DNA of 64,000 nt from Echinicola arenosa (GTDB lineage Bacteria > Bacteroidota > Bacteroidia > Cytophagales > Cyclobacteriaceae). Numbering within the stretch: the first letter of the stretch is position 1; each line of letters begins with the position of its first letter. The position numbers and the translations under genes were made by a program. The stretch spans positions 434,001 to 498,000 of the forward strand of contig NZ_JACYTQ010000002.1 in NCBI RefSeq assembly GCF_014841125.1. The letters are read 5' to 3'. A model generated the notes under the pieces. The model was given only the letters and a program-made list of their open reading frames with translations. It was not told the origin of the DNA and made no database searches. This document shows positions 21,524 to 25,308 of the stretch, in pieces.

Positions 21524-22867
21524 ATGATGAAGCGCATATTGATCACTGATGCAAATATAGTAAATGAAGGTAAGATTACCCGTGGAGATGTTTTCATCCA
21601 AGACGGTTTGATCTTTTCTACAGGTGGTAACCTTAAGGATTTTGAAGCCGACATTACCATTGAAGCTAATGGAAAATACCTACTCCCAGGTCTAATTGAT
21701 GATCAAGTACACTTCAGAGAACCCGGCCTAACCCATAAGGCAGAAATCTACACGGAAGCCAAGGCTGCCGTAGCCGGGGGGATAACCTCATTCATGGAAA
21801 TGCCCAATACAGTGCCCCAATCTACCACTTTAGAACTGTTGGAGGAAAAATATAAAATTGCTTCTGAAAAATCATTGGCCAATTATTCCTTCTATCTAGG
21901 CGCTACCAATGACAACTTAGATGAGCTTTTGAAGGCAGATCCTGAAAACATCTGTGGCATCAAAGTTTTTCAAGGTTCTTCCACTGGCAATATGCTCGTC
22001 GACAATCAAGAAACATTGGAAAATATTTTTGAAAAATGTAAAATGCTTATCGCTACACACAGCGAAAATGATGATATCATCAAAGCCAACCTGGATAAAT
22101 ACTTAGCAGAGTACGGGGAAGATATCCCTATAAAGTATCACCCAAAAATCCGTTCGGCAGAAGCTTGCTATGATGCGTCCAAAAGAGTAGTGGACTTAGC
22201 AAGGAAACACGGCACCAAACTACACATCCTGCACATCAGTACAGCCAAAGAAGTCCTGCTTTTTGACAATACTTTACCACTGGAAGAAAAAAGAATCACC
22301 GCAGAAGCTTGTGTACACCACTTGTGGTTCTCAGAGGAAGATTATGATGAGAAAGGGACTTTGATCAAATGGAATCCAGCTGTTAAATCCAGTGAAGATA
22401 GAGAGGAAATATTAAAGGGTGTGCTTGATGACCATATCGATGTTATTGCCACTGACCATGCTCCCCACACCTTGGAAGAAAAGGATAATGTCTACACCAA
22501 AGCTCCTTCTGGTGGGCCTTTGGTACAACATAACCTAGTTGCCTTATTGGAAATGTACCATCAAGGAAAAATAAGCTTAGAAGAAATCGTTCAAAAGACC
22601 AGTCATAATGTAGCTATCCTTTTTGAAATTGAGAAAAGAGGCTATATCAGACCCGGATATTTTGCTGACCTGGTGTTGGTTGACCTCGATTCTCCTTGGG
22701 AGGTGAATAAAGAAAACATTCTTTCTAAGTGTGGGTGGTCTCCTTTTGAGGGGCAAACTTTCCAGTCAAAAGTCACGCACACAATTGTTTCCGGACACTT
22801 AGCGTACGAAAACGAGACATTTCATGAAGAACAAAAAGGACAACGTTTGAAATTTTCCAGAAAATAA
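21524..22867 (+). CDS. pyrC: Dihydroorotase
   Basis: 447 residues of the amidohydrolase type, class I (long) dihydroorotase, the third step of pyrimidine synthesis. Motifs: LLPGLIDDQVHFREPGLTHKAE with H63 and R65, a GVKVFQGSSTGNM-like segment near 145 containing the likely carbamylated Lys, ILHISTAKE, and IATDHAPHTLEEK with the catalytic Asp. In most dihydroorotases the first motif reads HxH; here the first His is Gln61. The same DDQVH form is, as I recall, usual in Bacteroidota. Two adjacent ATG codons can start it. It is monocistronic as far as visible, followed by the tRNA-His promoter. Confidence 0.93.
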   Translation: MMKRILITDANIVNEGKITRGDVFIQDGLIFSTGGNLKDFEADITIEANGKYLLPGLIDDQVHFREPGLTHKAEIYTEAKAAVAGGITSFMEMPNTVPQSTTLELLEEKYKIASEKSLANYSFYLGATNDNLDELLKADPENICGIKVFQGSSTGNMLVDNQETLENIFEKCKMLIATHSENDDIIKANLDKYLAEYGEDIPIKYHPKIRSAEACYDASKRVVDLARKHGTKLHILHISTAKEVLLFDNTLPLEEKRITAEACVHHLWFSEEDYDEKGTLIKWNPAVKSSEDREEILKGVLDDHIDVIATDHAPHTLEEKDNVYTKAPSGGPLVQHNLVALLEMYHQGKISLEEIVQKTSHNVAILFEIEKRGYIRPGYFADLVLVDLDSPWEVNKENILSKCGWSPFEGQTFQSKVTHTIVSGHLAYENETFHEEQKGQRLKFSRK

Positions 22868-22951: not shown

Positions 22952-23026
22952 GGTGGTTGTAGCTCAGCTGGTTAGAGCGCTGGTTTGTGGCACCAGAGGT
23001 CGTCGGTTCGAACCCGATCTTCCACC
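22952..23026 (+). tRNA. tRNA-His (anticodon GTG) with two acceptor-stem mismatches
   Basis: The cloverleaf has the His-specific extra G at -1 (22952) facing discriminator C (23026). The D arm is GCTC/GAGC, the anticodon stem CTGGT/ACCAG with loop TTGTGGC (anticodon GTG), and the T loop is TTCGAAC. The acceptor strand GTGGTTG faces CTTCCAC: pairs 5-68 and 6-67 are T-T rather than Watson-Crick. All other arms pair well, and the gene has a good promoter and a terminator, so it appears expressed. CCA is not encoded. Confidence 0.93.
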
Positions 23027-23027
23027 C

Positions 23028-23060
23028 AAAACCCCTCAAAATTTTGAGGGGTTTTATTTT
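23028..23060 (+). terminator. Terminator of tRNA-His
   Basis: A perfect 28-base palindrome (14 + 14, core CCCCTC/GAGGGG) at 23028-23055 followed by a T-rich tail, beginning two bases after the tRNA. Confidence 0.9.
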
Positions 23061-23133
23061 TATAGAAGCAGCAAGGAACTAAAATGGCATGTATTTTGTC
23101 TGTCAGATTAAATAATCAAAAATTATTCTAGTA

Positions 23134-23283
23134 ATGTTTACATTATTCAAATCAACTCCGGTCATCCCAAAGGTAAAACCAGTCAATTTGAAAGATATTC
23201 AGTTGTACATGGCAAAATTCGAGGAATCCCTCAGAAACTTTGATGAGATACAAAAAGAGAATGTTAACACAATAATAAGATAA
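23134..23283 (+). CDS. Small ORF, 49 residues, unknown function
   Basis: ATG at 23134 to TAA at 23281-23283. The protein starts MFTLFKSTPVIPKVKPVNLK and continues with a helical-looking segment, IQLYMAKFEESLRNFDEIQK, ending NVNTIIR. It has no signal peptide or membrane helix; the N-terminus is basic and proline-rich and the C-terminal half probably forms an amphipathic helix. It stands alone between the tRNA-His terminator and the debranching-enzyme gene, and a good terminator starts six bases after its stop, which supports a separate transcribed unit. No Shine-Dalgarno is visible, as for other genes here. The family is not recognised. Confidence 0.6.
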   Translation: MFTLFKSTPVIPKVKPVNLKDIQLYMAKFEESLRNFDEIQKENVNTIIR

Positions 23284-23288
23284 CACAC

Positions 23289-23320
23289 AAAAGGTCATGT
23301 TTCCATGACCTTTATTTTTT
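23289..23320 (+). terminator. Terminator after the 49-residue ORF
   Basis: A perfect 10-base stem (AAAGGTCATG / CATGACCTTT), four-base loop TTTC, then TTTATTTTTT-like tail. It lies upstream of the chosen start of the debranching-enzyme gene, which argues against the longer frame for that gene. Confidence 0.9.
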
Positions 23321-23391
23321 GCCTTTATATTTTTCTTTTCCGACTATTGGAGTATTTTTATATACCACTCAAAATCACTAAATCATACTCC

Positions 23392-25308
23392 ATGAGCTAC
23401 ATCCATTTTGATAAGACGGAATTAATCAATCTTAATTATTCCCTCGAAAAAGAAATTATTCGATCTAACCGATCAGGCTGCTATACCAGCACCACCATAA
23501 TTGGATGTAATACACGGAAATATCACGGACTGCTTGTTGCTCCCCAACCACAAATTGATTCGCAACTACATGTCCTTCTGTCCACCATCCATGAGACCGT
23601 CATCCAACGCGGCGCCAGCTTCAACCTTGGTATCAGCAAATACCCAGGCAACTACTCTCCCAGAGGTCACAAATACCTGGAAGACTATAGCTCAGAACCG
23701 ATCCCAAATCTGATCTATAGAGTAGGCGGTGTTGTATTACAAAAAGAAATCATCCTTGACACCACCGCTGACAGAATGATGATCAAATACACCTTGTTGG
23801 ACGCCCACTCCCCTACAACTTTAAGACTTAGTCCCTATTTAGCTTTCAGAGGATACCATGCACTTTCCAAAGCCAATACTTATGTCAACAAGAAATATTT
23901 GAAAGTACCTAATGGTGTTCAATTTAAACTTTACGATGCTTACTCTCCACTTTCTTTACAGATCTCCAAAGAAAACGAGTTTGTACCAGCGCCAGATTGG
24001 TATTATAATATTGAATACATCCAAGAAAAAGAAAGAGGCTATGACTATCAGGAAGACCTATATGTCCCAGGATTTTTTGAATTTGATATTGAAAAAGGAG
24101 AATCGGTTATTTTCTCAGCGGGCCTAGAGGACGCTGACCCTTCGAGTTTGAAAGGTGCATTTAACAGGGAATTGAAGAGAAGAACACCTCGGGATAATTT
24201 TGAAAACTGCCTTCGCAATTCTGCAGGCCAATTTATCAGCCGAAGAGGAGATGAAACCAGAGTCATCGCCGGTTATCCATGGTTTGGCTGGTGGGGAAGG
24301 GATACTTTTATCTCTCTACCAGGACTAACACTTACACTTGGTGATAAGGATACTTTTTTGGAAGTAATGAAAACCATGTCCAGAGATATCAATGGAGCCA
24401 TGTTTCCTAATGTCGGCAGTGGTGTTGAGACCAACCAAAAAACAATAGATGCCCAGCTTTGGTATTTCTGGGCATGGCAACAGTATGAAAAATTCACTGG
24501 CGATAAAGCCACTATCATCAATGATTATCTCCCCAAATTAAAAGGCATTATTGAGGGTTTCTTAGCCGGTACCGACTTTAATATAAAGGTACTGGACAAC
24601 GGGCTTCTATACGGAGGCCAAAAAGGTGCTGCCCTCACCTGGATGGATGCTGTCACTTCAGATGGGCCTGTAACCCCAAGGATTGGTTGCCCAGTTGAAA
24701 TCAATGTTTTGTGGTATAATGCTCTTTGCTTCTATCATGAGCTTACTGGAGAAGATTTTGCAAAAGAACTTGCTGACAAGGTAAAAACATCCTTTTTGGA
24801 AACTTTCTGGAGCAGTGAAAAAGGCTACTTAGCTGATGTCGTTAATGATGGCAAAAAAGATTGGTCAATCAGGCCCAATATGGTTTTCGCCACCTCACTT
24901 CCTTACAGCCCCCTTGAGGACACACAGAAAGCAGCAATTTTAGAGGTCGTAAAACTTAATCTCCTTACCCCTCGAGGACTAAGAACTCTCGCACCAAGCG
25001 ACCCTGATTACAAAGGCTACTATCAGGGCAATCAGTATCAAAGAGACAACGCTTACCATCAAGGAACGGTTTGGCCATGGCTGCTTGGACACTTTGTGGA
25101 AGGCTATCTTAAAATACATGGTAAATCAGGTAAAAACATGATTGAAAAGCTTATTTTAGGCTTTGATGACACCATGTCCCAATATGGCGTTGGAACCATT
25201 GCTGAAATTTATGACGGCGATCCCCCTCACAGACCAAAAGGAGCTATCTCCCAAGCTTGGAGTGTAGCCGAGTTACTTAGAATCATGCATTTAGTTAGTC
25301 AACTTTAA
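23392..25308 (+). CDS. Amylo-alpha-1,6-glucosidase / glycogen debranching enzyme
   Basis: 639 codons including stop from the ATG at 23392 (protein MSYIHFDKTE...). An in-frame ATG at 23305 lies inside the preceding terminator and adds an unrelated hydrophobic stretch. The N-terminal GDE_N domain (about 20-250) includes GCYTSTTIIGCNTRKYHGLLVA. The C-terminal six-hairpin glycosidase domain (about 270-635) includes GYPWFGWWGRDTFISLPGL, WMDA and NAYHQGTVWPWLLG. The enzyme removes alpha-1,6 branches of glycogen-like glucans in the cytosol. A GT4 and a GH57 gene follow with 11-base spacing and a four-base overlap, forming an alpha-glucan operon. Confidence 0.93.
   Translation: MSYIHFDKTELINLNYSLEKEIIRSNRSGCYTSTTIIGCNTRKYHGLLVAPQPQIDSQLHVLLSTIHETVIQRGASFNLGISKYPGNYSPRGHKYLEDYSSEPIPNLIYRVGGVVLQKEIILDTTADRMMIKYTLLDAHSPTTLRLSPYLAFRGYHALSKANTYVNKKYLKVPNGVQFKLYDAYSPLSLQISKENEFVPAPDWYYNIEYIQEKERGYDYQEDLYVPGFFEFDIEKGESVIFSAGLEDADPSSLKGAFNRELKRRTPRDNFENCLRNSAGQFISRRGDETRVIAGYPWFGWWGRDTFISLPGLTLTLGDKDTFLEVMKTMSRDINGAMFPNVGSGVETNQKTIDAQLWYFWAWQQYEKFTGDKATIINDYLPKLKGIIEGFLAGTDFNIKVLDNGLLYGGQKGAALTWMDAVTSDGPVTPRIGCPVEINVLWYNALCFYHELTGEDFAKELADKVKTSFLETFWSSEKGYLADVVNDGKKDWSIRPNMVFATSLPYSPLEDTQKAAILEVVKLNLLTPRGLRTLAPSDPDYKGYYQGNQYQRDNAYHQGTVWPWLLGHFVEGYLKIHGKSGKNMIEKLILGFDDTMSQYGVGTIAEIYDGDPPHRPKGAISQAWSVAELLRIMHLVSQL

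Follow-up and report, generated by a model that had tools for sequence, protein, structure and literature searches.

A conserved 49-residue protein gene of the Cyclobacteriaceae with its own terminator and a sigma-54-type promoter-like element

Introduction

Downstream of the tRNA-His gene of Echinicola arenosa, and upstream of a gene for a glycogen debranching enzyme, an ATG-to-TAA frame of 49 codons lies by itself. Is this frame a gene, and if so, how might it be transcribed and what might its product do? We analyzed it within a window of 64,000 nucleotides (positions 434,001 to 498,000 of contig NZ_JACYTQ010000002.1, assembly GCF_014841125.1); all positions given here are those of the window. 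An earlier note made from the window's letters had read the frame as a 49-residue protein-coding gene with its own terminator, and the comparative data support that reading. Our analysis adds to it a conserved promoter-like element of the sigma-54 type, which is common to the dnaK and lon genes of relatives.

Results

Layout of the locus

The features of the locus, all on the + strand, are as follows.

21524 to 22867, + strand: dihydroorotase-like amidohydrolase gene, upstream neighbour (Pfam amidohydrolase; "dihydroorotase" is our reading)
22953 to 23027, + strand: tRNA-His(GTG), upstream neighbour
23028 to 23055, + strand: terminator-like hairpin of tRNA-His, between the tRNA and the small gene
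23085 to 23100, + strand: sigma-54-type -24/-12 element TGGCATGTATTTTGTC (GGCA 23086-23089, six bases, TTG 23096-23098)
23112, + strand: predicted transcription start, assuming that +1 lies 27 nt past the element's first base
23134 (ATG) to 23283 (TAA), + strand: small protein gene, 49 codons plus TAA (ORF listing, homologues, dN/dS, codon-position entropy)
23290 to 23320, + strand: intrinsic terminator of the small gene (stem 23290-23313 plus T-run)
23330 to 23360, + strand: promoter-like block TTTTTCTTTT...TATTTTTA of the downstream gene
23392 to 25308, + strand: glycogen debranching enzyme gene (GDE_N, GDE_C), downstream neighbour

The frame and the hairpin terminator that the earlier note placed six bases past its stop were confirmed in coordinates and stem (10 pairs, 4 of them G-C, a loop of 4, then ATTTTTT), as was the position of the frame between the tRNA terminator and its own, with hairpins at 23028-23055 and 23290-23313. 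A scan of 1.6 kb on both strands revealed 4 terminator-like sites compared with 1.5 +/- 1.3 in shuffled sequence; two of the four are the named hairpins on the + strand and one other is the same hairpin read backwards. The layout is shared by relatives. We extracted 119 homologous loci, of which L029 and L082 are one record, leaving 118 distinct. The tRNA-His gene lies upstream on the same strand in 118 of the 119, the remaining locus (L134) being cut by a contig end, and the debranching enzyme gene lies downstream on the same strand in 116, starting 89-183 nt past the small-gene stop. The dihydroorotase-like gene was present in 107 of the 119 fetched stretches, many of which are only about 1.1 kb long.

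The frame is under coding selection

The surroundings contain many other frames of 30-50 codons, and a 49-codon frame is by itself no more than chance would give. It stands above chance because it is conserved, as examined by codon-position entropy and an open-frame test. Across 66 loci under 90% identical, entropy was 0.71, 0.49 and 1.42 bits at codon positions 1, 2 and 3, respectively, and only this one of the six frames was open in all 66 (next best, 7/66). Codon-level conservation had been proposed in the earlier note as a check. The median dN/dS was 0.10 (NG86), calculated from the 36 of 276 pairs that were usable (0 < dS < 1.5) in a set of 24 sequences (L023 of 25 was left out); the other 240 pairs were saturated or unsolved. 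Together with the position entropy, this value indicates coding-type substitution. An ATG occupies the consensus position in 117/119 loci; L023 has its ATG one codon upstream and L197 is frame-broken. The broken frame of L197 (genome G309) is disrupted near its start with the promoter-like element kept, and may represent a pseudogene or an assembly error. Judged from its conservation, the 49-residue frame is a real gene for a small protein.

The gene family is restricted to the Cyclobacteriaceae in the genomes searched

A single-sequence search identified the small gene in 24 of 98 relatives, comprising all 11 genomes of the genus (our own included) and 13 other members of the family. A profile search extended this to 121 of 390 Cyclobacteriaceae genomes, each with one strong match (E <= 4.1e-17), after exclusion of 25 of the 146 genomes reported, whose matches (E >= 7.9e-4) were counted as chance. 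By our count of the profile table, the gene is present in 21 of the 84 genera of the family. The named relatives recovered by sequence are Echinicola, Pararhodonellum and Cyclobacterium, in keeping with a genome of the Echinicola group (Cyclobacteriaceae, Cytophagales). In a search of 390 genomes of the order, all 44 strong matches fell in the Cyclobacteriaceae; 4 weak matches elsewhere in the order (E 0.0058-0.0098) were taken as chance and not as relatives. The single-sequence search of 38 genomes from other families gave no match. We also examined 14 outgroup loci around tRNA-His: the dihydroorotase gene was found in 8/14 and a tblastn match to the small protein in none, and a scan of these loci for the tRNA and a downstream element recovered the tRNA in only 6/14. 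A 15-residue match in the Bacteroides locus L030 lies inside a long frame and was rejected as a homologue.

No Pfam domain was found in the window protein, and family members scanned singly gave stray matches only (best E 0.035 for Pfam and 0.0048 for NCBIfam). Two candidate relatives were discarded. The toxin TscT (NCBIfam NF047366) matched 14/66 members with a best E of 0.0088, the window protein not being among them, and XPR1 (SLC53A1) appeared among solved structures with a profile E of 8.7e-4 for the sequence and 0.044 for the stretch; the latter match covers a short helical stretch, has no other link to the family and was ascribed to chance. The portions of the literature on small proteins of this group and on sigma-54 and heat shock in Bacteroidota that we drew on hold no description of the gene. 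By sequence comparison, this is a small protein family with no known domain, restricted to the Cyclobacteriaceae within the genomes searched.

A basic head and a predicted helix

The window protein reads MFTLFKSTPVIPKVKPVNLKDIQLYMAKFEESLRNFDEIQKENVNTIIR, and length across the family is 43-49 residues. Nine residues are invariant in 66 members (M1, F2, L4, P12, Y25, K28, F29, E31 and Q40), within a head motif MFTLFK..P.FP.VKPV and a helix with an almost invariant KFEES core and a QKE end. The earlier note described a basic, proline-containing head and an amphipathic helix. The head is well borne out: positions 1-17 carry no acidic residue in 66/66 members, the median net charge over residues 1-20 is +4, and P12 is invariant. 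The helix is plausible. AlphaFold2, run with six aligned sequences, modelled residues 1-18 as extended and 19-48 as one helix (mean pLDDT 78.9, pTM 0.42), and the hydrophobic moment exceeded that of 95% of shuffles in 47/66 members; for the window protein itself, 5.1% of shuffles reach its value. The 18-residue hydrophobicity means of the window protein, sampled at every third starting position, lie between -0.38 and 0.19, low values that make a membrane-spanning toxin unlikely. The polar residues K28, E31 and Q40 are conserved beside the hydrophobic Y25 and F29, a pattern that suggests contact with a conserved partner.

Small bacterial proteins of comparable dimensions are known. YobF of Escherichia coli, a stress-induced protein of under 50 residues, resembles the present protein in size and in the presumed stress promoter, but the family described here was found only in the Cyclobacteriaceae. 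The small ribosome-associated proteins SRA of E. coli and bL38 of Flavobacterium are alike in having about 45 residues and a basic head; our profile search of the Protein Data Bank gave no ribosomal protein among 31 matches up to E = 10.

A -24/-12 element precedes the small gene

Upstream of the ATG lies an element of the form TGGCAY-N5-TTG[A/T], the first base of which is 49 nt before the ATG in the window. The pattern [TC]GGCA-N6-TTG was found in 117 of the 118 distinct loci (118 of the 119 extracted), where it begins 40-57 nt upstream of the ATG; since the loci share ancestry, these counts are not independent events. The sole miss, L067, keeps GG-N8-TTG (by eye). As a spacing control, every other spacing from 2 to 10 was seen in 0 or 1 locus, and the element arose in 0.45% of mono-shuffled upstream regions. 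Over 67 loci the seven fixed bases of the element carry 1.8-2.0 bits, and no position outside it exceeds 1.1. GGCA-N6-TTG has the spacing of the sigma-54 -24/-12 element. If transcription starts at the assumed offset of 27 nt, the 5' UTR would be 22 nt here and 13-30 nt (median 18) over 118 loci. At -12, 111 of the 117 loci have A or T, 4 have C and 2 have G, in departure from the canonical C; in passages of a 2025 survey the consensus is given as TGGCACN5-7TTGCT (PMC12316311). Because -12 is mostly A/T and not C, we call the element sigma-54-type and do not treat it as a proven member of the class.

The element also stands before dnaK and lon of relatives

GGCA-N6-TTG was found before dnaK in 27 of 30 loci and before lon in 27 of 29 (L353 for dnaK and L382 for lon, with orthologues in L352-L411), in the form TGGCAY-N5-TTG[A/T/C]. 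Each set was made up of the 30 loci that matched best, drawn from 59 genomes with a dnaK match and 57 with a lon match; one lon locus gave no start, and the genus of the window contributes 11 of the 30 in each set. Other spacings from 2 to 10 occurred in at most 2 loci of any set (dnaK, lon or small gene), and the antisense count was 0. In the three dnaK misses (L372, L374 and L377) a single base of the element differs (by eye). Loci from beyond the family carry it in 4/5 cases for dnaK and 2/4 for lon. The -12 base was A/T in 27/27 dnaK and 23/27 lon elements, and it seems from these counts that the order tolerates A/T at this position.

A published precedent exists in Flavobacterium psychrophilum, where, according to passages of the study, a -24/-12 motif stands at mapped starts before groES-groEL, lon, dnaK, grpE-dnaJ, htpG, skp and clpB, and mutagenesis at the remF operon bore out that the motif contributes (PMC9723704). 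The sigma-54 regulon of strain SM4 is like the present case in its -24/-12 element and in including dnaK and lon, whose relatives here carry the element; it differs in that its starts were mapped, whereas the element here is known from sequence, in that the -12 base is mostly A/T here, and in that the passages of that study used here name no such small gene (PMC9723704). Passages of the 2025 survey also describe chaperones as enriched among the sigma-54 regulons predicted for Bacteroidota, including Cytophagia (PMC12316311).

A TGNCA-N3..5-TGNCA repeat, a candidate activator site, was observed in 25/30 dnaK regions (250 nt) and 12/29 lon regions (310 nt). It was found in 0/118 small-gene upstream regions (130 nt), and the wider region of 67 small-gene loci gave no TGNCA-type repeat either; the small gene therefore need not respond together with dnaK. 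An rpoN domain (Sigma54_DBD) was found in 97/98 genomes, our own included, and Sigma54_activat gave 11 matches in our genome, of which 7 were strong; weak activator matches mean little, a control having matched in 14/14 genomes.

Genome-wide counts of the element pattern

Searching the 11 genus genomes with the strict pattern TGGCAYNNNWTTTGWC yielded 13 matches in 10 genomes (5 of the matches at the small gene itself), compared with 17 for the reversed control; since the pattern does not exceed that control, the full form does not serve widely as a promoter. Two other forms in our own genome were more frequent than their reversals (YGGCAY-N5-TTGW, 62 sites vs 37; TGGCAY-N5-TTGCW, 8 vs 1). However, a pattern with one extra base between the halves also exceeded its reversed control (53 vs 14), so little can be read from the reversed control. 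The own-genome stretches fetched contain 72 distinct right-spaced sites. Among the non-coding ones, 13 are followed by a gene on the same strand and 4 by a gene on the opposite strand; with the other 55 of 72 inside coding frames, a lone match means little. Over 1.19 Mb of the genome, 6/28 right-spaced sites were non-coding and upstream of a same-strand gene, compared with 2/30, 1/44, 2/41 and 3/42 at four wrong spacings. The whole-genome enrichment of the pattern is thus modest, and the case for the element is made by its conservation across species.

The 13 non-coding same-strand sites include one before a DnaK gene and one before a Lon gene. Ten others (L088, L090, L093, L256, L284, L292, L303, L317, L331 and L334) precede exported or lipoprotein-like frames, a DJ-1/PfpI-like protein, an RlpA-like protein and others (names by eye). 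A 15-mer, TGGCATCCTTTTTTG, occurs four times in the genome (C12:345837, C15:479955, C16:126026 and C19:166296) and is perhaps part of a dispersed repeat.

From the sequence comparisons above, sigma-54 is the likely promoter class of the small gene. The best-surviving alternative, itself improbable, accepts a real small protein gene and has the element read by the primary sigma factor (TAnnTTTG) or by an ECF sigma factor. A/T at -12 instead of C would suit such a factor, and TTTG ends the primary -7 box TAnnTTTG of Bacteroidota as given in passages of one study (PMC7366714). However, a primary promoter has no counterpart to the invariant GGCA, the distance from TA to TTTG exceeds that of the box by one base, and there is no conspicuous TTG at -33. 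In addition, dnaK and lon, which share the element, are listed among sigma-54-type promoters in F. psychrophilum (PMC9723704).

The terminator, the downstream gene and possible RNA functions

A terminator-like hairpin was detected by script within 90 nt of the small gene in 112/119 loci. Of the seven misses, L079 and L201 have a hairpin that is visible by eye, and L078 and L083 have a stem that starts just where the 90 nt end. In L183, L193 and L199 the script found no hairpin, and no debranching enzyme gene lies within the 500 nt fetched; frame and element are kept in all three. These loci belong to small-genome relatives in which an aspartokinase-like frame (by eye) follows the small gene. 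The earlier note took a terminator kept without the frame as the sign of a small RNA; the opposite was found in these three loci, which argues against both an attenuator and a terminator-dependent RNA. The note had also reasoned that a terminator implies transcription. The gene does have a terminator, but that argument is weak alone, and the upstream sigma-54-type element is the stronger one.

The downstream gene has a promoter-like block of its own, TTTTTCTTT...TATTTTTA, the first part of which was found in 36/66 loci; the second part, which the search did not specify, hardly varies among the 30 of those 36 loci that are long enough to compare. Within the predicted transcript a stem-loop, GGTTATGGAAACATAACC, recurs exactly in 48/119 loci, and synonymous conservation is raised at several of codons 2-10. 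Both would fit a dual-function transcript, an mRNA that encodes the protein and whose 3' part also pairs with targets, but A/T bias at start regions can account for the raised conservation too. Rfam gave no family there at the gathering score, and RNAalifold on 23 of 37 transcripts (<80% protein identity) returned -0.76 kcal/mol with 7 pairs and 0 compensatory changes, a weak negative as it missed the terminator hairpin too. With no other RNA feature from these two sources and no hairpin found in three loci, we regard dual function as quite unlikely.

The conserved debranching enzyme gene downstream also raises the case of a leader peptide, in which translation of the 49 codons would set read-through of the hairpin into that gene. 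This is very unlikely: three loci keep the frame and the element with neither the enzyme gene within 500 nt nor a hairpin, the downstream gene often has its own promoter-like block, and most of the peptide is conserved, without any stretch of one repeated amino acid (by eye). Least credible is a small regulatory RNA of about 210 nt with an incidental frame, which would account for the promoter-like element, the terminator and the recurring stem-loop but is opposed by the coding selection on the frame and, weakly, by the Rfam and RNAalifold results.

Discussion

The small gene has a frame under coding selection, a promoter-like element, a terminator and conserved synteny, and it is restricted to one clade in the genomes searched. 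The reading that we prefer, with a probability of about 70%, is a monocistronic gene that depends on sigma-54, is probably induced by stress and encodes a small helical protein with a conserved binding partner. RNA polymerase with sigma-54 would transcribe the gene from the -24/-12 element just past the tRNA-His terminator, and the transcript would end at the gene's own hairpin, making the gene monocistronic with a predicted soluble product of 43-49 residues. Its element recurs before dnaK and lon of relatives, and the gene is therefore most likely part of a sigma-54 stress programme (protein quality or envelope). A different activator may control it there, given that the small gene lacks the TGNCA repeat found near dnaK. 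Both the sigma-54 dependence and the stress induction are what we infer from the element and its company. The protein, with its basic head and amphipathic helix, would then dock on one conserved cellular partner, which might conceivably come from protein quality control or the ribosome.

A more specific proposal, which we offer as speculation and consider doubtful, is that the protein acts as a lineage-specific sigma-54 stress effector: a 49-residue adaptor or inhibitor, co-induced with Lon and DnaK or by a parallel activator, that would redirect a conserved machine, be it a protease, a chaperone, RNA polymerase or the ribosome, by means of its nearly invariant KFEES helix.

In passages of a study of Bacteroides thetaiotaomicron, 7 of 409 predicted small-protein candidates had ribosome-profiling support (PMC7366714). 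The gene described here adds a well-supported small protein family, complete with promoter-like element and terminator, to a phylum that is poorly catalogued for such genes, and it comes with a testable regulatory prediction, that of control by sigma-54. More broadly, the finding that dnaK and lon of relatives are preceded by a -24/-12 element in which position -12 is mostly A/T suggests that sigma-54 control of chaperones and proteases may reach from Flavobacterium to the Cytophagales.
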